Virus record (IMG/VR): IMGVR_UViG_3300031951_000401
Coordinates: 1 to 41,425 of that record
DNA from: a virus
Length of the DNA: 41,425 bases
Direction: 5' to 3' (one strand)
Below, piece after piece: positions 13,398 to 35,908 of this stretch. Every line of letters starts with the position of its first letter. The first letter of the stretch is position 1. Under the pieces are notes generated by a model, which ran no database searches, was not told the DNA's origin, and saw only the letters and a program-made list of their open reading frames with translations. The position numbers and the translations under genes are program-made.

Positions 13398-13628
13398 CTA
13401 AACCCACAACGCGGTAGGCCCGTCCTCTTGTCCCTGGGGCGCCTCGACAGGGAGCCAGACGATGGTTTTACCGTCTGGACCCAAAGCCGAGATGTGTAAC
13501 CTGTTGTTGCTCATCCAGAACTGCCCCACACAATGCGGCGTGGGACTCTCGGACTGCTCCCTGACCTTTTGTGCGGTGTCGTACTCGGCGATCAGCTCGT
13601 TGAAAATTTCACCGGCGTTTGATGTCAT
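13398..13628 (-). CDS. Small hypothetical protein coupled to VWA gene
   Basis: 76 aa, not recognised. The middle (VGQFWMSNNRLHISALGPDG) looks like a small beta sheet. Its ATG overlaps the TGA of the VWA gene in the sequence ATGA, so the two are probably translationally coupled and it may act with the MoxR/VWA system. Confidence 0.7.
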   Translation of the reverse strand: MTSNAGEIFNELIAEYDTAQKVREQSESPTPHCVGQFWMSNNRLHISALGPDGKTIVWLPVEAPQGQEDGPTALWV

Positions 13629-15172
13629 CGGATTGCTTTCTGAATAGCGTCTACAACATTATTATCGTCGGAGGTATCTACGGTGTAACTCTCGTCACTA
13701 AATGTCGCAACCACCGGGGGAAGGTGCCTGGCGATGCAGAACGTTGTCCACTGAGTGCCTGTAGATTCTTTGAACGCTTTGAGGCGCTTGACGAACGCAT
13801 CGGTGACCGCCGACTCGCCGTCGGTAATCATCAAGACGTCGCTGTTCTTTGTCAGCTCGTCATTCTTCAGCGCGTGGTCAATCACGCTGTTGAAGTTTGT
13901 GCCTCCGCGCAGAAACCAGTCGCCTACAAAATCCAGCAACTTTGAGGCACTTGCTTTGTTGGGTTCGATCGTGACACTGTTTTGAATGAAGGTATCAAAT
14001 AGGTTTATCTGCACCTTGCGACGTTGCTTCAGAGCTTCTTCAGCAATGACGAATGCAATGGCTTTGGACCAGATTTCGCTGGCACCTGTCATTGATCCCG
14101 ACACGTCGATGTACATCACGATCGGACCTTTGCCTAGATCTTTACGACTGGCGGTATAGTCCTTGGTAAGCAGAGTACGTTCAGAGTATTTGAGAGCAAA
14201 TAATGCGCGGCCTTGCGGCGTAGCCGCTAGTGCAATTTCGCTGGGAAATGCTTGCGTTATGTTGTTGTCGAATTTGGCACCGGTGATGTTCTCGTAGTTG
14301 CTCTTTGCCTTACGAGCACGCTTGCGCTCTGCCCAGATCCGCCGGAGGGTACCGAGCCGCGTGGCGATTTTACGCAGCGTCTGATTCCGGTTCAGCCGTT
14401 TGGCCAGCGCTTTCTTATCTGCCAGCGTGCCCGACGATGCGCCCTGACCCGCTGTGTCACCGAACAGGCTGCTCATTTGTTCCTGCAGTTCGTCGTTAGC
14501 CTTGTTGACGCTATCGACGATCCTGCTGGCCTCAGCGCCCACCTGCTCTTTGGCCTCCTGGATCGCGTCGTTGATCTGGTTGATCAACTCTTTAGCTTGC
14601 TGTCTGATCTCAGCAGCTTTGCCTGTGTTTCCCTTAGCTGTTTCTTTTTGGAACTTGTCCCGCAGCTCCTGTAGCTGCTGTCCGCTTTTGGTCAGCAACT
14701 CTACGTCAAAGGTCTGCTCGCTGATTGCTTGCTCGATGGCTTCGGCAAGCTCGTTCAGCAGCATCACTGCGTTGTTACCTGAGGCGAACTGATCGCCCAC
14801 GCAGCGGTGCAGCAAAAGAGGCCAGCCTGCGGCGTTGGTCAGCTCATCCATGACCGCAAACCACACACCGTTCTCCGGGCGGTAATTCTCAGGGAGCTTT
14901 GCGGGCATCCCGTCGCACACAGCACGGAAGTAGTCCTCGACGTCTTGTTCGCTGACAAGCCATTTGACTTGATCTTCGTTATACAGACGTTCGAAAATTT
15001 CTTTACCGAAGCGGCTCAGTTGAACAATCTCGTAGTTGTTAATTAAGTAGTTGACGCTGGGTTTCTGCTCGCGGACAAAGTCGTCCCACAGAAAGTCAGC
15101 CAGTGCGCTGCAGTACAGAGTCAGCGGCTGATTCTCGACAATACGTAAGAACTCTCGACGTGTTTGTGTCAT
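13625..15172 (-). CDS. VWA-domain protein, ViaA/CobT-like partner of MoxR
   Basis: A metal-binding von Willebrand A domain forms the C-terminal third (about residues 345-515 from the chosen start): MIDAS DVSGS at 356-360, the RGGTNF threonine near 425 and ITDGES near 449-454. The N-terminal two thirds are helical, with a Gln/Lys/Glu-rich coiled-coil stretch near 160-230. This order (helical N-terminus, C-terminal VWA) is that of ViaA and CobT, which work with MoxR AAA+ ATPases; a RavA-like MoxR is encoded upstream in the same direction. The start MTQTRREFL at ATG 15172 avoids an overlap with the preceding gene; the open frame extends to 15229. Confidence 0.9.
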   Translation of the reverse strand: MTQTRREFLRIVENQPLTLYCSALADFLWDDFVREQKPSVNYLINNYEIVQLSRFGKEIFERLYNEDQVKWLVSEQDVEDYFRAVCDGMPAKLPENYRPENGVWFAVMDELTNAAGWPLLLHRCVGDQFASGNNAVMLLNELAEAIEQAISEQTFDVELLTKSGQQLQELRDKFQKETAKGNTGKAAEIRQQAKELINQINDAIQEAKEQVGAEASRIVDSVNKANDELQEQMSSLFGDTAGQGASSGTLADKKALAKRLNRNQTLRKIATRLGTLRRIWAERKRARKAKSNYENITGAKFDNNITQAFPSEIALAATPQGRALFALKYSERTLLTKDYTASRKDLGKGPIVMYIDVSGSMTGASEIWSKAIAFVIAEEALKQRRKVQINLFDTFIQNSVTIEPNKASASKLLDFVGDWFLRGGTNFNSVIDHALKNDELTKNSDVLMITDGESAVTDAFVKRLKAFKESTGTQWTTFCIARHLPPVVATFSDESYTVDTSDDNNVVDAIQKAIR

Positions 15173-15197
15173 TTTTAGTAAAAAGAAGTGGGTCTGA

Positions 15198-15437
15198 CTA
15201 AAGGGCTTCAAGCTCGTCGGCGATGGCAAGGATTACATCAAGAGCATCTTTCCACCCATCAACATAACTCTGGTGAACGTAGTCAATGTCTTCAATGTGA
15301 GCTTTTGGGTGTGCTTGCTCCGCAGTAGCACGAATGGCGGCAGCAATTGCTACCACATCCATCTCATAAGGATCGGCTTCCCACTTTGCTATGAGCGCAT
15401 TCAATACTGCGTGAGCAGAGGGTAAAAGTTTAGACAT
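15198..15437 (-). CDS. Small cassette protein, LAIADEL family
   Basis: 79 aa helical protein. It resembles the protein at 33244-33480: both start near a PxAxxVLxA motif, contain A-x-R-A-x-A-x-Q and end with LAIADEL. Function unknown. It forms, with the next two genes, a three-gene cassette that has a counterpart at 33.2-34.1 kb, set into the MoxR/VWA operon. Confidence 0.75.
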   Translation of the reverse strand: MSKLLPSAHAVLNALIAKWEADPYEMDVVAIAAAIRATAEQAHPKAHIEDIDYVHQSYVDGWKDALDVILAIADELEAL

Positions 15438-15724: not shown

Positions 15725-16069
15725 CTAATCGGGCAAGGATTCGAGAGCGCGGCGGACAACATCAAGGTCGTCTATCTGCCACATTTCTTTGTTGTTTTGG
15801 ATCTTGTCAATTAGAGCAAGGCTTTGCTCCTTCAAGCTCGGCGGCTTGGGGCGGCGGGCGGCGCGGAGGAGGTTGCCAGCGTTTTGGTAGTTGAAGGTGT
15901 CTTGCCACTGGCAGCACGCCTCCAGCTCCTGGTCAGCGCCCCAGCGAGCGGCTTGGGTGGCGATGTTTTGACACAAAGCAAAAAGGTCTTCGTAGCTAGT
16001 TCCGTTAGTAGTCGCCCACTCACGCACCAGCTCAGGCGGCGGGGTGATCGGGTGGTCTTGAGGCGTCAT
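15725..16069 (-). CDS. PITPPPELV-family accessory protein, copy 1
   Basis: 114 aa. It carries HPITPPPELVREW at the start, IATQAARWGADQELEACC in the middle and RRPKPPSLKEQ then RALESLPD at the end. I recognise this as a family common in picocyanobacteria and their phages, function unknown. A second copy at 33712-34053 shares the ends closely while the centre differs. Its ATG overlaps the TGA of the MoxR gene as ATGA. Confidence 0.85.
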   Translation of the reverse strand: MTPQDHPITPPPELVREWATTNGTSYEDLFALCQNIATQAARWGADQELEACCQWQDTFNYQNAGNLLRAARRPKPPSLKEQSLALIDKIQNNKEMWQIDDLDVVRRALESLPD

Positions 16070-17253
16070 TGTGCAATCTCCGAGATCTCGCGGGCGATAG
16101 AGTCCAGATTGTTTTGAAGCTGTTGTGTGAGCTTAACGCCGTTCATGCGCTCGGATGCGCTCATCTTGGTACGGTCGCTCGTTAGTAGCTCGTCCACTTT
16201 CACCTTAATCGTGTTCACATCCTTGTGATACTTGCGCAGCATCGTTACATATTCGTTTAGACCTTCCAGATTGTTTGCACGGCTGCGGTGCACAGTCGCC
16301 TGGAACTCAGCCATAACCCCTGAGGTTGCTCGTTTTGCGTCCGCGAACAGTTTGGCCGCCGTGGGAATCTCCTGCTCTAGAACTTCGCAGATTACCTGTT
16401 GATCGTCAGAGCTCGTGTAAACGATGTGTACGACGCTGCCGTGCATATGCTCCGGATGCAGTGTATCGTCGCCCTGGACGACCGCCCAAGCCCGAAGGAA
16501 CTTGAGGATCTGAACCCGACGTCTATCGCTGATCAAAATGCCCCGCTGCGATAGGAGCTCCCATACACTGTTGAATTTGTCTAAAAACTCCTCGGAGATC
16601 TTCACTTTCGCCGCCTCGTCCTGAAGAGCGCTGAGCTCTTTGAGCGTGATGTGTTCGCCCACCTCCGGACGTTGCTCGATACCCAAAGCCCATTGATCGA
16701 GAATGCGCTTCGAAGTCGGTTTCTTGAGCGTATGCACCGTGGGGCGGAACAAGAAACGGTCGCTAAATGCTTGAAGCGACTCCTCCTCCGGCCAGCTGTT
16801 GGTAGCGGCGACGATGCTCTGCAGCGGAGTGATGATAGTGCTTTTGCCGTTGTTGAAAGTTCTCTCGTTCAGTAGAGTCAAAAGAGAATTTAGAATTGCG
16901 GAAGAACCACGGAAGAGTTCGTCCAAAAATCCAACGTGTGCTGAAGGCAGATAGCCGTTGATATCACGCTGATATTCGTCTTGTAGCAGCTTAGTTACGG
17001 CCACTGGACCGAAGACTTCCGACGGATCAGTGGTCGGAGTCAACAGGTAACCAAAGTAATTGACGCCGGTAATGCCTTTACAGATGTTTCTTACTAGGTC
17101 AGACTTGCCTGTGCCTGGTGCACCGAGTAAAAAAGCATTCTGTTTCGAAAGCAAGCAGCTCAGCAATCCGTCGATAACGTCGGTTCGTTCGAGCGTGGCC
17201 GCATTGAGAGCGCCGCGAAAGTTCTGAAGCTTGGCAAAAAGAGTGTTGTTCAT
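16066..17253 (-). CDS. MoxR-family AAA+ ATPase, RavA-like
   Basis: Walker A GAPGTGKS at 44-51, Walker B HVGFLDELF at 106-114, sensor ATN at 150-152 and the DRFLFR arginine region at 165-170 define an AAA+ ATPase. The succession TTDPSEVFGP, GYLPSAHVGFLDELFRG and SAILNSLLTLLNERTFNNG is characteristic of RavA and related MoxR chaperones. In bacteria these act with a VWA protein to load cofactors or remodel protein complexes. The 395-aa product has a C-terminal helical extension. It is in one operon with the VWA gene and the DUF3150-like gene, with ATGA or TAATG overlaps at its junctions. Confidence 0.92.
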   Translation of the reverse strand: MNNTLFAKLQNFRGALNAATLERTDVIDGLLSCLLSKQNAFLLGAPGTGKSDLVRNICKGITGVNYFGYLLTPTTDPSEVFGPVAVTKLLQDEYQRDINGYLPSAHVGFLDELFRGSSAILNSLLTLLNERTFNNGKSTIITPLQSIVAATNSWPEEESLQAFSDRFLFRPTVHTLKKPTSKRILDQWALGIEQRPEVGEHITLKELSALQDEAAKVKISEEFLDKFNSVWELLSQRGILISDRRRVQILKFLRAWAVVQGDDTLHPEHMHGSVVHIVYTSSDDQQVICEVLEQEIPTAAKLFADAKRATSGVMAEFQATVHRSRANNLEGLNEYVTMLRKYHKDVNTIKVKVDELLTSDRTKMSASERMNGVKLTQQLQNNLDSIAREISEIAQ

Positions 17254-19977: not shown

Positions 19978-20050
19978 TGGGGGCCAAGGGGATCGAACCC
20001 TTCTTCTGTGTGTTATGAGCACACTGCTTTCACCAGAAAGCTAGACCCCC
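19978..20050 (-). tRNA. tRNA-Met (CAT)
   Basis: Read on the minus strand from 20050: acceptor GGGGGTC pairs with GGCCCCC, D-arm GCTTTCTGGTGAAAGC, anticodon stem GTGTG/CACAC around the loop CTCATAA (anticodon CAT), a short variable region, and T-arm AAGGG-TTCGATC-CCCTT, with discriminator A. CCA is not encoded. CAT could be elongator Met or lysidine-modified Ile; elongator Met is the simpler call. Confidence 0.92.
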
Positions 20051-23879: not shown

Positions 23880-23914
23880 GACGAGATTGCGAGGGTGTTA
23901 GTTACAGTGATCAG

Positions 23915-24172
23915 TTAGAAGTAGTTACGGAATAGTTCATGACGACGTGTCCAGTTAGGATTGCAAACGTTGCCATCCTTGGGATCATTCAGACAAGGCC
24001 GTTCTTTATCGGTGTAAACGTAACGGAATCCTTTGTAGTTACCCGTCGTCATTAAGACGTGCTCAAGTGCAGTGATTAAACCTTCCTTTTGCTCGTCGCT
24101 GTAGTCAAGTACCAGCGAGTTGTTGACAAAAACTCGGAACTGTTGCACATCAAAAGTTTTACGCTTGCTCAT
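23915..24172 (-). CDS. Hypothetical protein under leader RNA control
   Basis: 85 aa from ATG 24172 (MSKRKTFDVQQFRVFVNN); GTG 24181 in frame would add three residues, but the arrangement GGTGA then ATG mirrors that of the gene at 23190. The fold appears alpha/beta: FRVFVNNSLVLDYSDEQKEG, then a helix, and KGFRYVYTDKERPC near the C-terminus. Not recognised. It is the first gene of the minus block after the large non-coding region, preceded by leader copy 2. Confidence 0.75.
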   Translation of the reverse strand: MSKRKTFDVQQFRVFVNNSLVLDYSDEQKEGLITALEHVLMTTGNYKGFRYVYTDKERPCLNDPKDGNVCNPNWTRRHELFRNYF

Positions 24173-24180
24173 AACATTCA

Positions 24181-24254
24181 CCAGCTACATGGCTGGCAGC
24201 TAACAACAAAGAGGGAAGAATCCCTCACCGAACCGCGTGGCTCGGGGAGAGAAT
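24181..24254 (-). promoter_or_regulatory. Structured 5' leader RNA, copy 2
   Basis: On the minus strand: conserved box GATTCTCTCC (about 24254-24245), hairpin H2 (24245-24228, CCGAGCC/GGTTCGG with one G-U pair, loop ACGC), hairpin H1 (24226-24211, GAGGGA/TCCCTC, 4-nt loop), linker with GTTAGC, and hairpin H3 (24196-24181, CCAGC/GCTGG, 6-nt loop) whose 3' arm adjoins the GGTGA ribosome-binding sequence of the ATG at 24172. Stems H2 and H3 differ in sequence from copy 1 but pair equally, so the structure is conserved. Confidence 0.68.
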
Positions 24255-24263
24255 CTAGTCTGT

Positions 24264-25343
24264 GATCAAGAATGATCCTACTGGATCAAACTCAATACTT
24301 AACCTGGACAAAGCTAGTAGTTAACAGGCTCCGCCCTGTTACAGTTAGGAACTGCTGCTCCAAACTAAATTAAACGCATTGTGTTAGTTACAGAGTACAG
24401 ATTGCCACCTATTGCACGGATTGAACCGCCATCGCCGGACAACGACCGGGTGAGGTTCGCTCACAACTGTGTCCAGCGTACCTGCACTAAGGACAGTTAC
24501 TCTGGACAAAGCCTGCAGGCAGACAAACTGAACTCTGTAACTAGCACTTGCCACGGTGACGAATACCGTTGCGTCGCTAAATGTAGAGAACGACTCTACT
24601 GATCAGTTCTTTATGCCAACCAGTCACCTAGTTAAAGGTGCCAGCTGACAACGTATACGTTGACAAGTTCGGCATCGTGCACACTTAGCCGGTCGGGTTG
24701 CAACCGTAGTGTGCTCGGGGGATCGCTCGCGCCCCTAGTTCCATCTTGTGACGATGCCTGTTATGAAGAACAGTTAGCTATGCCTTAGGCTTTCCGTGCA
24801 AACTATCTCAGCACAGCTAACTTATTCAGTTGTCAAGGTTCTTTCACCTAGTTACCTACTACAACTCTCGCCGCACTCGTTCCGGCACACCATGCCTGCC
24901 CTTGCCTACACTTCGGGGAAGTACTCCCTACCATCAGCGGCAGACGCGCGGGGCCAGTTCGGCCGTCGCGAAAGTTGATTCAGTTGTCCAGGTGCCCTGG
25001 TGGCGTGGCTCTCGCCCCGTTCCTCCAGTGACCTAAAGGTAACCCCCATCGGCGCATCCCGTCAAGCCCTTAGGCGGTCGGTCACCAAAAGCACACAGAG
25101 CACAGTCAGCTAGCTAGCTAAAGGAAAGCGCGCAGGCGCACGCGCTAGCACCACGTCTGCCCTTTAGTCAAGCGGCTTCATAGTCTGAATTCTCTTTAGT
25201 TAAAGGGGGCACCCTCCCCCTGTCAGTGAAAAGAATAGAACAAGAGCTTGAGTTTGTAATACATAGCGATTGCTATTTGATTCGTTATACAAACTCAGCT
25301 CCCCCGCACCCGCGCGTCTGTACGCAATGTGCCCCTTTTTTTT
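24264..25343. ncRNA. Candidate large structured non-coding RNA region
   Basis: No credible gene lies between 24182 and 25476. The region holds a dense chain of perfect stems, among them 24322-24328/24335-24341 (7 bp), 24342-24346/24350-24354, 24450-24454/24460-24464, 24553-24557/24565-24569, 24583-24588/24594-24599, 24625-24629/24636-24640, a long-range stem 24671-24678/24751-24758 (8 bp) enclosing 24679-24685/24708-24714 (7 bp), a three-way junction closed by 24772-24779/24815-24822 (8 bp), 24988-24992/24996-25000, 25028-25033/25080-25085, 25127-25132/25141-25146 and 25250-25258/25288-25296 (extended by 25244-25248/25297-25301). A plus-strand terminator at 25306-25343 would suit a plus-strand transcript. 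Large ornate phage RNAs of the GOLLD or ROOL kind are the nearest known analogues. Strand and limits are uncertain. Confidence 0.55.
25306..25343 (+). terminator. Probable plus-strand terminator of the RNA region
   Basis: GCAC (25306-25309) pairs with GTGC (25329-25332) and inside it GCGT (25314-25317) with ACGC (25322-25325) around a CTGT loop. Three C residues and eight T residues (25336-25343) follow. The stem is imperfect, but the T-run supports termination of plus-strand transcription. Confidence 0.5.
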
Positions 25344-25446
25344 AATTGTGTGCGTTAGACGTCGCCCCCGGCGAGAACCCTTTGTGAATCTTGCTGGAAA
25401 ATAGGGGGTAAAAGTTTTAGTGTCAGCATACAAACAGGCCCCCGAC

Positions 25447-25472
25447 AAAAAAAAATCGCCCGCGTGGGGCGA
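25447..25472 (-). terminator. Rho-independent terminator
   Basis: On the minus strand TCGCCC (25472-25467) pairs with GGGCGA (25461-25456), loop of five, followed by nine T residues. It lies just after the stop of the 63-aa gene at 25477, separating the genes at 25.5-26.1 kb from the non-coding region. Confidence 0.88.
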
Positions 25473-25476
25473 CAGG

Positions 25477-25668
25477 TCAAACTTTTTCGGCTTCTATAAG
25501 AAAATCTTTGAGGAATTTTACGTAACTTCGTAGCAATTCGGCTGCTATTAAGTGTTTATGGTCTTTTGAGCGGAAATAAAATGCGTTGTGCTGGTCAACA
25601 GCGTCTAGTGCTGTTTTAATGACCCCGTTCCACGGCTCGCGTGTAGGGGTATTCCACTCCCGTGCCAC
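25477..25668 (-). CDS. Small helical hypothetical protein
   Basis: 63 aa from GTG 25668. The sequence begins MAREWNTPTREPWNGVIKTA and has two helices, the second ending in LLRSYVKFLKDFLIEAEKV. Short proteins with a W-rich start and two helices are common in phage early regions; the function is unknown. It is followed by a strong terminator. Confidence 0.72.
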   Translation of the reverse strand: MAREWNTPTREPWNGVIKTALDAVDQHNAFYFRSKDHKHLIAAELLRSYVKFLKDFLIEAEKV

Positions 25669-25714
25669 GGAGGGGAGGTCAGAGTACTTATTTATGCTAA
25701 GACGGGCAGGTTAA

Positions 25715-26059
25715 CTACAGTTTTTCAAAACGAAAGTAAATTTGAGCGGGAAAATAGTCGAAAAACGCCAATGTAGCGGGACACAGCCACCCCTCTTCGC
25801 CGTTCCATTCGTACCAAGCACCGTCGAACTCTTCGCGAACCTGATTTAGCGCCCCGTGGACCTCAGGAAATTCCTGTTCCGCGAACAAGACTCTGTAATT
25901 TTTGCCGTCTTCGTACAAAGAGTTGTTTTCCAGAACAGTGTTTATGATTTCAGGAATGCCTAGAACAAAAGGTTCGTGTACTAATTCGCGTTTTAGATCT
26001 GTAAAGCACCAAGTTCCGTTAAACTGATAAATTTCGATGCAGAGCATTGCGTTGGCCAT
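25715..26059 (-). CDS. Conserved phage hypothetical with GWLCPA motif
   Basis: 114 aa. The pattern WCFTDLKRELVHEPFVLGI, YRVLFAEQEFPEV, GAWYEWNGEEGWLCPATL and FFDYFPAQIYFRFEKL follows a beta-rich protein type seen widely in phages and bacteria (small proteins with EPFV and GWLCPAL motifs), function unknown. It is the first minus gene left of the divergent intergenic space to the late block. Confidence 0.8.
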   Translation of the reverse strand: MANAMLCIEIYQFNGTWCFTDLKRELVHEPFVLGIPEIINTVLENNSLYEDGKNYRVLFAEQEFPEVHGALNQVREEFDGAWYEWNGEEGWLCPATLAFFDYFPAQIYFRFEKL

Positions 26060-26131
26060 GTGCTTTTGATGTGATGCAGTGCTATGGTAGCACGCCCGTT
26101 GTCCTGCGAGAGTCGAATATTTATAGAATTT

Positions 26132-26140
26132 TGGTATGAT
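26132..26140 (+). promoter_or_regulatory. Possible late promoter with extended -10
   Basis: TGGTATGAT (26132-26140) is an extended -10 element (TGn followed by TATGAT) 23 bases before the GTG of the 984-aa late gene, within an A/T-rich divergent intergenic stretch (26060-26163). No good -35 is seen, as is usual for extended -10 promoters. Confidence 0.4.
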
Positions 26141-26163
26141 GGGAGAAGATTAGTGGCGGCGCC

Positions 26164-29118
26164 GTGAATTCATCTGGTGTTGGGTTAACGCCCCCTCGTA
26201 CACCGATTGAACGGCTGCCTGAACTGGCGCGTAAGCTGCAGTCAACGTATAACGTTGATCAAAATGCTCTTCGCCAATTTTTATTTCAAAGTGCTTTAGA
26301 TGAAGGTGAGCTTGATGACGCACTTTCACAGATTTATCCTGATTTAGACCCTGAAGACGCTGCGACTGTAACTTCAGTTTCAGATTTTCAGAACTATTTG
26401 CCTTTCGAAGGCTTTGATATTGACCCGGACAACGAATCACTTAACGCTTATCGTCTTGCTGCGGAGAGTCCTAAAGCCAGACAATTTGTCGAGCAGAACA
26501 ACGATTTAGGGACCTTGCTCCCTGGCGGCAGCGTGGAGACTGCCCGAGATGCGTATTTGCAAGCCATAAACTCTGGCGCACTGACTCCAGAGGCCCGCAA
26601 CACTCTTCGCTACGCGGGCGAATCCAGATTTTTATCCAATGCAAATTACAATGCGGACTCCGGTGAAGCTTTAAATAATCTGTTGCAAGCCTATACTGAT
26701 AGGTTTGATACAGATTATTCTGCGAATTTAGAAAATGTTGCTGATATTTTAGAGCAAGTAGATGAAGTTATACGTCCTGTTGAGGCTGATCTAGGGGCTA
26801 GAAATGTCTCTTTAAGTTACGCCCAGAGCGATGCCGCGCGGCGTGACCCTTTTGCAACTCGGATTGACAATCGAACTGTTCAGCCTGGGTTGCCTTTTGG
26901 CGGAGGCACTCAAGACATTAGTCAGCGTCTTTCGGCTTTAAGTAGTACTACTCCGCAGACTTTGGAGGAGCTTCGGGCTCAAGTTAATGAGATTCGAGGT
27001 TTACGGCAAGAAGCAGCTACACAACGCTCAGCAGAAACCTTCCCTATTGAAGGTTCGGTGTTGTTGCCGCAGGTCCGCGAAGCAATAATTTCAAACCCGA
27101 ATACTAGCGGCAGACGAGTTAACTATTTGGTACAAGCTGCTGAGAATGCGGCGCGAGATCCCAATCGGAACTCTCTTTACCAGGTACAACGAGATTTGAG
27201 CCAACAAGAGGCTCAAGGACTAGGAGCGGAAGAAACGCTCCGAACAGTCAACATGAGTCCGGCAGAAATCAACCCGTGGTTTGACCCGGTTTCAGCCGGA
27301 GAGTATGTTCAGAATTCATTAGCAGGACTTGGGCTTCAGCTCTCGGAGTCCAAAGAAGCGGCGATCCAGGAAGCTGTAAGCAAACAGGCTGCGGATCTAA
27401 ACAAGTTTGTTGAAAAGTATCCGGAGGTTGGTCCGTACCTTCAGGGTGCATTGGGTAATCCGACTCCTAAGATCGAGCGAGACATCAACAAACTCGCGCC
27501 GTATCTTGATTTAGAGCAGGAGATATCTAAGCCTGAGGCACGTCGAAATATTTACAACCTTGCGATGAAGGAGTTGGGCGTACAGCCTTCTTACTTATCA
27601 CAAATTGAACTGGATTACACCAGCGGCGAGACGAGCAAGCAGAGAGAAGCTATTGATCGTTTGATTCAGATGGGTTACGGCGCAGAGCTACAAGCTGGTT
27701 CGTCATCTGCGGTCTCTCGTCGTATGCCCGTTGTTGGCGGCGGTGGTTACGCAACAGGACAGGAACTGCGTGATGCTCTTTCTTCTATTAACGAGCGTGC
27801 CGTTGAGTTTGAAAAATTAGCCAAGATACCTGCGACTACTTCGGCGGGTCCTAGCTCCGGTCCTCTGGGAATTCGAAATCCAAACTTGGGCAAAGTTCCT
27901 TCGGTTGCTTCGTTCTCTTACGACCCAGATACAAATACAGCTCGTCCTGATCCAGCCGGCGAATACGGCATTCGAGTCAATACGAGCACTGATCCGGCTC
28001 GCATTCGGTTGGGCGAGAATCTCGGCGGGCTTTCTGAGATGTCTAGGAATGCCCTTAAGTTTATGCAGGATAATCCTGTAACTCAAAGGTCTAGTGTTTC
28101 TTTTGAAACGAGCACTCCAACTTCTGGGTTCGACTACAGCGCTAAGGACATTCCGGCGCCTGTGTTCGAACAGATGAACAAGTTCATCACGGAAAATGTC
28201 CTGCGGAATATGCGTCCAGGGATGATCCTGGAAAATTCTCCGTTAAGTTCGGGCGATTTGGCCCGGTTACGGGAGGATCAAGGAAAATCTTTGAGTGAGA
28301 GCTCTATTCTTCGTCGCCAAGAAGAATTCCGGGGGCAACAGCCCAACCGCCGTGGAGCAGCATACCGTTCTGTCGGTTTTGGCCCTCTTACAGAACAAGG
28401 CAGTCAGATGTTGTATATGAACAGTGAGGGCAATATTGTTCCTCTTCAAGTTGCTCGCCCCGCAGCTTCTCTGACCGGCGGTGTCGCTATTCTTCCTAAC
28501 CCTTTACGTGCCGAAGTTACGCAGTCCCGTGAACCGCTGACAGCCAAAGCGTATTACTCTACAGATCCTGTATCTGCTGCTGCGCAGGGTGCAGGTGAGT
28601 ACGTTCGGGCTCTGCGGCGCACGCCTGCTGCTTTGTTGCCTGGTGCTGCAGATCTGATTCCTAGCCCCGAGGCCATTCAAACTGGATATCGCGAAGGGCT
28701 TGGACCTATGGCCCAGCAAATGGGCACGGAGTTTGTGCAGAGTTTGCCGCAGGCGGCTGCCTATTCTGCTGCTCTGGCCGCTGTACCGGTATTAGCTCCC
28801 GGTGTGGGAGCAGGTATGGTCGGCACTGCGGGCGCTAGGGCACTGAACGAAGTAGTGCGCCAGGAAACCGGAGAGGGCATCGTGCCTAAGCTGCGTCAGG
28901 CCCTCGGTACCGCGCCTCGAACCGGCGTGGCCAGTCCTGCTCGTACAGGTCCACAGCCGTTAACTGCGCAAGTCCGTCCTTTGACTCAGGCACAACGAAC
29001 CGAACAGCAACGTCAGCAAAATCGTTCTGAGTTGCAACGGCGATTGGAGTTGGCTGGCCAGCGTTGGAATCCAGGCAAATTTGAGTTTGGTTTATCCGAG
29101 TTGTTACGTGGGCGGTAG
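26164..29118 (+). CDS. Large virion-type protein (984 aa)
   Basis: First gene of the plus-strand late block, with GTG start at 26164. The protein is long, hydrophilic, rich in Gln, Glu, Ser and Pro, and mostly helical with repeated short motifs, without enzyme signatures. Toward the C-terminus (about residues 855-900) there is an Ala/Gly/Pro-rich hydrophobic stretch (AAYSAALAAVPVLAPGVGAG) that could insert into membranes; the last 60 residues are Arg/Gln-rich. These features resemble large internal or ejection proteins of phage particles. Its position directly upstream of fibre-type genes supports a virion role. Exact function is not shown. Confidence 0.85.
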   Translation: MNSSGVGLTPPRTPIERLPELARKLQSTYNVDQNALRQFLFQSALDEGELDDALSQIYPDLDPEDAATVTSVSDFQNYLPFEGFDIDPDNESLNAYRLAAESPKARQFVEQNNDLGTLLPGGSVETARDAYLQAINSGALTPEARNTLRYAGESRFLSNANYNADSGEALNNLLQAYTDRFDTDYSANLENVADILEQVDEVIRPVEADLGARNVSLSYAQSDAARRDPFATRIDNRTVQPGLPFGGGTQDISQRLSALSSTTPQTLEELRAQVNEIRGLRQEAATQRSAETFPIEGSVLLPQVREAIISNPNTSGRRVNYLVQAAENAARDPNRNSLYQVQRDLSQQEAQGLGAEETLRTVNMSPAEINPWFDPVSAGEYVQNSLAGLGLQLSESKEAAIQEAVSKQAADLNKFVEKYPEVGPYLQGALGNPTPKIERDINKLAPYLDLEQEISKPEARRNIYNLAMKELGVQPSYLSQIELDYTSGETSKQREAIDRLIQMGYGAELQAGSSSAVSRRMPVVGGGGYATGQELRDALSSINERAVEFEKLAKIPATTSAGPSSGPLGIRNPNLGKVPSVASFSYDPDTNTARPDPAGEYGIRVNTSTDPARIRLGENLGGLSEMSRNALKFMQDNPVTQRSSVSFETSTPTSGFDYSAKDIPAPVFEQMNKFITENVLRNMRPGMILENSPLSSGDLARLREDQGKSLSESSILRRQEEFRGQQPNRRGAAYRSVGFGPLTEQGSQMLYMNSEGNIVPLQVARPAASLTGGVAILPNPLRAEVTQSREPLTAKAYYSTDPVSAAAQGAGEYVRALRRTPAALLPGAADLIPSPEAIQTGYREGLGPMAQQMGTEFVQSLPQAAAYSAALAAVPVLAPGVGAGMVGTAGARALNEVVRQETGEGIVPKLRQALGTAPRTGVASPARTGPQPLTAQVRPLTQAQRTEQQRQQNRSELQRRLELAGQRWNPGKFEFGLSELLRGR

Positions 29119-35826: not shown

Positions 35827-35908
35827 GCCCAGGTGGTGGAATGGTAGACACACAGCACTTAAAATGCTGAGGCGTTATGCCGTACGAGTTCGAGTCTCGT
35901 CCTGGGTA
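35827..35908 (+). tRNA. tRNA-Leu (TAA)
   Basis: Acceptor GCCCAGG pairs with CCTGGGT, anticodon stem CAGCA/TGCTG around CTTAAAA (anticodon TAA, reading UUA), a long variable arm as in class II tRNAs and T-arm ACGAG-TTCGAGT-CTCGT, discriminator A. CCA is not encoded. It would help translate UUA codons. Confidence 0.94.

Follow-up and report, generated by a model that had tools for sequence, protein, structure and literature searches.

In Escherichia coli, the boxA sequence of ribosomal RNA (rrn) operons is bound by NusB-S10 and nucleates an antitermination complex; boxA is necessary and sufficient for these rrn complexes, and the nut sites of phage lambda use this module together with boxB (PMC10250234). 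The put RNA of phage HK022, about 70 nt long with two stem-loops, involves no dedicated protein factor and acts directly on the polymerase (PMC9378689). Known cyanobacterial or cyanophage RNA motifs include manA, wcaG and PhotoRC (PMC2864571), and the most abundant transcript of phage ICP1 is an ORF-less RNA of ~800 nt (PMC7567579).

The locus described here lies in a 41,425-bp IMG/VR virus record, analysed at full length and called the window below. It resembles the cyanobacterial rrn leader (boxB-boxA-boxC, 16S-23S spacer) in a boxA identical at 18 of 19 nt, in a non-coding setting that host polymerase reads in the bacterium and would read in the phage, and in the presence of NusB in the hosts. 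It differs in that the phage boxA sits in an early leader, 0-4 nt before a conserved three-way junction, and in that the core model of the phage junction yielded no convincing match when run on 14 Synechococcus/Cyanobium genomes (best E 0.017). With lambda nut the locus shares the combination of early promoter, boxA, adjacent structured RNA element and early operon, but a three-way junction replaces the boxB hairpin, the host is cyanobacterial, and family scans identified no counterpart of N, the protein partner of lambda nut. Similar to the HK022 putRNA, it is a structured RNA near an early promoter for which we infer cis action on the polymerase; it differs in having a boxA and another fold, its core (P1-P4) and P5 being three-way junctions predicted to lie several hundred nt from the promoter. 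Large, structured and phage-encoded, it also recalls GOLLD and ROOL, the analogy drawn in the original prediction, but it precedes a minus-strand early operon rather than forming a free-standing plus-strand gene, has no tRNA island and matches no Rfam covariance model (GOLLD, ROOL, OLE). The ICP1 transcript is likewise a large non-coding phage RNA in gene-free space, but adjoins the lysis cluster.

A conserved structured RNA in gene-free DNA

From 1.1 to 24.2 kb, the genes of the window, which include those for a primase, a DNA polymerase and an ATPase, run mostly leftward; from 26.2 kb on, structural genes run rightward. The original prediction placed a giant non-coding RNA on the plus strand at 24264-25343. 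That this interval is gene-free is borne out by the ORF list, which holds no credible ORF across it, and inspection of the sequence recovered the proposed stems of P1 (24671-24678/24751-24758), P2 (24679-24685/24708-24714) and P5 (24772-24779/24815-24822, 24782-24784/24788-24790 and 24796-24799/24811-24814). A further proposed hairpin (25244-25258/25288-25301) is also present but, in our reading of the alignment, unconserved in relatives. Both strands fold more stably than dinucleotide-shuffled controls (1154-nt region, 60 shuffles), with -393.9 versus -354.2 on the plus strand (z -4.9) and -454.8 versus -397.9 on the minus strand (z -6.5), and among all minus-strand tiles of the genome, this one folds most stably.

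Using blastn, 64-78 nt of the region were matched in intergenic DNA of the Synechococcus phages S-CBP1 and DSL-LC07, whose source papers mention no promoter or non-coding RNA. A search pattern derived from this alignment retrieved 46 IMG/VR stretches, and further patterns added more; the short pattern CGNGGGATCGCTCGC lacked specificity, and the group A pattern yielded one new member (L184), its remaining new matches lacking the motif. Since MAFFT misaligned the 5′ sides of the window-type cores, only T7-like members went into the first covariance model; it found 59 loci, including the window core (E=2e-17). The 88-nt core recurs in 59 fetched phage loci, mostly of T7-like Synechococcus phages, at one copy per virus record in the seven records checked. 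No match was returned from GTDB genomes with the exact pattern or from plasmids, and the core model did not find S-CBP3, S-CBP4, S-CBP2 or P-SSP7.

Aligned on the minus strand, the core comprises 83 columns and 23 pairs, with 97.5% of cells paired, compared with 93.9% on the plus strand. Changes on both sides affect 12 of the 23 pairs in 94 cells, values that 0 of 500 shuffles reach, and slid structures gave 0-2 such pairs. Homologues show decisive compensatory changes in P1-P4, and such changes are also present in P5. A genuine and conserved structured RNA occupies the gene-free stretch. Large, structured, non-coding and covarying, it upholds the idea of a giant non-coding RNA, whose strand, extent and GOLLD/ROOL analogy have to be revised. 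Rfam, searched for GOLLD, ROOL and other families at the gathering threshold and at E<=10, gave only chance matches in the gene-free region, and manA, wcaG and PhotoRC are without a match in the window leader; our covariance models now define a structured RNA absent from Rfam 15. Three loci (L028, L036 and L163) carry hairpin-like insertions of ~18-20 nt at the same spot in the P2-P3 arm. Between the window phage and the T7-like phages, thymidylate synthase matches at 41-43% and other matches are few and distant; because so little protein sequence is shared, we conclude that two different lineages have the RNA in the same position, before their early genes.

Support for P5 comes from four window-type sequences, the window included, in which 100% of cells are paired on the minus strand versus 93.3% on the plus strand and three pairs are changed on both sides. 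In S-CBP3/S-CBP4-type phages, boxA is followed by a different, strongly covarying three-way junction (two-sided changes at 8 pairs in 24 cells, reached by 0/500 shuffles). Because boxA of S-CBP3 and S-CBP4 also precedes a junction, boxA followed by a three-way junction is a shared architecture.

Evidence that the RNA lies on the minus strand

Contrary to the original prediction, a minus-strand RNA is strongly supported. Besides the more complete pairing of the core and P5, mismatches on the plus strand become wobble pairs on the minus strand. In P3, C·A on the plus strand turns into U·G in 29 of 33 distinct sequences, the other four being Watson-Crick, and all four plus-strand mismatches of P5 turn into G·U. 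The minus-strand model R2, built without the window, detected the window core with E=1.6e-18 and 76.0 bits, compared with 73.4 bits for the plus-strand model R1. All five window-type members score higher with the minus model (76.0, 70.8, 68.1, 62.6 and 59.4 bits) than with the plus model (73.4, 68.9, 65.4, 60.9 and 54.0 bits). Fold energies, the leftward promoter and boxA favour the same strand.

A host-like boxA next to the junctions

At up to three mismatches the window contains two boxA matches, both in the leader on the minus strand (Table 1), where 0.04 are expected. The corresponding host sequence, GAACCTTGACAACTGCATA, has 15 matches in 9 of 11 Synechococcus/Cyanobium genomes (reversed control, 0); all 15 fall in rrn 16S-23S spacers, 460-700 nt past the 16S 3′ end, and tRNA-Ile/tRNA-Ala lie upstream in the three cases checked. 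Its position and resemblance to known boxA sequences suggest the name boxA. Mimicry of host rrn spacers by the phage boxA is strongly supported. The direct repeats noted in the original prediction exist, but CTGGACAAAGC begins at 24304 and not 24303, and ATTCAGTTGTC (24824 and 24979) is part of the boxA complement; reading of the wrong strand had hidden the host-rRNA-like boxA.

About 44 of 52 T7-like loci have a gap of 2-5 nt between the end of their best boxA match and the core, and three more fit this spacing once longer cores are allowed for. Mean boxA scores in T7-like loci are 14.5/19 in sense and 11.2 in antisense orientation, a few matches of 14-16/19 occurring in background sequence too. 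A search with the boxA motif pattern identified about 30 further cyanophage-like leaders. Host rrn spacers (for example L413) have a stem within a few nt after boxA (GTCTGG...CCAGAC), a context that the phage junction may imitate.

Promoter and leader anatomy

Table 1. Features of the leader and its surroundings in the window.
Feature	Position	Strand	Basis and remarks
Structured early leader RNA, predicted ~1.22 kb	24173..25391	minus	no credible ORF; fold z -6.5
Intrinsic terminator of the preceding leftward unit	25455..25473	minus	GTCGCCCCACGCGGGCGAT then T8; immediately precedes the leader promoter
Predicted sigma70-like early promoter, CTGACA-17-TATTTT	25398..25426	minus	consensus and conserved block in 4 relatives
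boxA copy 2, GCACCTGGACAACTGAATC	24977..24995	minus	15/19 to host rrn boxA
boxA copy 1, GAACCTTGACAACTGAATA	24823..24841	minus	18/19 to host rrn boxA
P5 three-way junction	24772..24822	minus	abuts boxA copy 1 directly; pairing and covariation
Core three-way junction P1-P4	24671..24758	minus	covariance models, covariation; common to T7-like Synechococcus phages
Helix TGTCCAG/CTGGACA	24470-24476 with 24502-24508	minus	alignment; L016 equivalent ACAACGTG/CACGTTGT
Hairpin CCGA/TCGG with GAGCCAC	24228..24245	minus	alignment; CCAA/TTGG in L014
Terminator-like hairpin GAGGGATTCTTCCCTC-TTTGTTGTT	24211..24226	minus	leader end; the hairpin, but not its T tract, is conserved
First gene of the leftward early operon	23915..24172	minus	ATG at 24172, SD GGTGAA at 24182-24177

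There is strong support for placing the leader downstream of an early promoter and ahead of the leftward early operon, and alignment of relatives displays conserved blocks along its length. The predicted window promoter, from which transcription is expected to start near 25391, draws on conservation and on analogy with relatives, the consensus match alone being weak (9/12, the sole promoter-like match in 23900-26300, with 1.8 expected by chance). At the equivalent position, an almost unchanging promoter-like element, TTGACATAAATTTAACAAGCCTTATATCG, is directed at the early genes of T7-like relatives; where the flank is long enough, nearly all T7-like loci have it at 500-880 nt from the core. 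Two complete genomes contain one near-exact copy each, and a promoter pattern search matched 97 loci.

The original prediction ended the RNA at 25343 with a plus-strand hairpin plus T8. The terminator scan gives minus-strand sites only here, and the predicted extent is instead ~25391 to 24173, into the leftward early operon. The terminator upstream of the promoter is conserved in L014 and L016. At the leader end, L023 and L184 have lost the T tract at 24211; the neighbouring hairpin at 24228-24245 resembles a GAGCCAC hairpin that T7-like phages carry downstream of the core and that is followed by AT-rich sequence only. Leader structure outside boxA, P5 and the core is thinly supported, and RNAalifold found little support in the whole T7-like leader outside the core and the hairpin. 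The distance from the core to the ribosome-binding site is about 70-120 nt in T7-like phages and about 500 nt in the window. As downstream genes differ, we reject a shared gene-specific riboswitch.

In the window region 24735-24758, the minus-strand sequence CGUC-ACAA-GACG (window CATC...GATG) could form a small hairpin in competition with the P1 5′ strand, possibly a switch.

Discussion

We consider it fairly likely that the RNA is a 5′ early leader on the minus strand which supports processive antitermination of the nut/rrn type through host NusB-S10; the virus probably borrowed the boxA trick of host rRNA operons for its own first transcript. The boxA of the host's rrn operons is present on the transcribed strand, NusB is encoded in 9/9 host genomes, and the leader is placed between promoter and operon, the promoter being defined by consensus and conservation only. 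Host RNA polymerase would transcribe the leader from the promoter at 25426-25398, and the better boxA copy, P5 and the conserved core would emerge in this order. On the nascent RNA, boxA would be bound by host NusB-S10 with NusA/NusG, while the adjacent junctions might hold the complex on the polymerase, like boxB of lambda nut or the HK022 put RNA itself. The resulting processive elongation complex could pass pauses and intrinsic terminators and so complete transcription of the early operon. The simplest reading would be a leader that acts in cis on processivity in this operon.

Some observations count against antitermination. Clear terminators directly after the leader are not conserved, and antitermination at E. 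coli rrn operons acts mainly against Rho, which was not detected in nine host genomes (0/9). We know of no characterisation of rrn antitermination in cyanobacteria; the effect in the phages would bear on intrinsic terminators, on pausing or on RNA folding, and not on Rho.

In the main rival the RNA acts in trans: abundant early in infection, it would titrate NusB-S10 through its boxA copies and thereby lower host rRNA transcription. Such a sponge would suit a large, highly folded RNA with two boxA copies in the window, kept while the first downstream gene varies (window, L014, S-CBP1, S-CBP3 and S-CBP4), and the abundance of the ICP1 RNA offers a parallel; we nevertheless regard it as unlikely, as the RNA, which lacks a conserved terminator, sits between promoter and operon, the T7-like members have one boxA only and the fixed spacing of boxA and junction suits a cis-acting nut-like element. 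Somewhat less probable still is a structured leader with a controlling role in early mRNA stability, processing or translation, in which boxA would serve co-transcriptional folding instead of terminator read-through. The absence of detectable Rho from the hosts would fit it, as would the finding that rrn antitermination complexes also aid folding and processing of nascent RNA (PMC10250234), but downstream genes vary and the distance from the core to the ribosome-binding site is not fixed.

Two further readings would change the strand or the nature of the element. A plus-strand giant RNA of the GOLLD/ROOL kind ending at 25343 is very unlikely: although window-type relatives retain the T8 of 25335-25342 and the stems can form on both strands, core and P5 pairing, model scores and fold z all favour the minus strand, which also carries boxA and the conserved leftward promoter, and there is neither a plus-strand terminator or promoter in the scan nor an Rfam match. 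We give the least credence to a DNA-level element, that is, a terminal repeat or a packaging or replication signal with inverted repeats. In T7-like relatives the element is indeed located where genome ends and early promoters meet, but plus-strand mismatches that become G·U on the minus strand are a signature of RNA, boxA acts as RNA, and the window phage keeps the element without being T7-like.

On a broader proposal derived from the antitermination reading we are evenly divided: at least two cyanophage lineages would use a new class of antitermination RNA, boxA plus junction, to capture the host rRNA machinery for their earliest transcript, possibly starving host rRNA synthesis of NusB-S10. 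If antitermination is confirmed, this would be, to our knowledge and from open-access PMC papers, the first known nut/rrn-type system in cyanophages, and one operating in hosts without detected Rho. It would explain the gene-free leader of 0.6-0.9 kb before the first gene of many T7-like Synechococcus phages and provide a concrete molecular route through which these viruses may rival or mimic host rRNA transcription as infection begins. S-CBP1 and Synechococcus CB0101 form a culturable pair open to tests.

Other features of the window and its relatives

Two CDS, S-CBP3_0015 (L275 8703-8933) and S-CBP4_0001 (L276 257-652), lie antisense within the structured leader and are probably spurious. 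T-arm-like hairpins (CAGGGTTCGAGTCCCTG; GAGAGGTTCAATTCCTCTC) occur in the leaders of S-CBP3 (L275 9077-9118) and P-SSP7 (L277 629-650 and 1020-1046) and are possible RNase P substrates at the leader end. A tRNA/tmRNA-like origin was rejected, since such hairpins were not seen in the other leaders and ARAGORN finds no tRNA in those of S-CBP3 and P-SSP7. Just past psbA, P-SSP7 (L277 20522-20575) and S-CBP4 (L276 19742-19806) carry glutamine-II riboswitch aptamers. On the minus strand of the window, 13625-15229 and 16066-17253 encode a VWA-domain protein and a nearby ATPase, an arrangement reminiscent of a MoxR/VWA chaperone pair. The window also contains a tRNA-Met (19978-20050), reported by ARAGORN only, and a tRNA-Leu(TAA) (35827-35908), which both Rfam and ARAGORN recognize and which is also found in L014 and L184.
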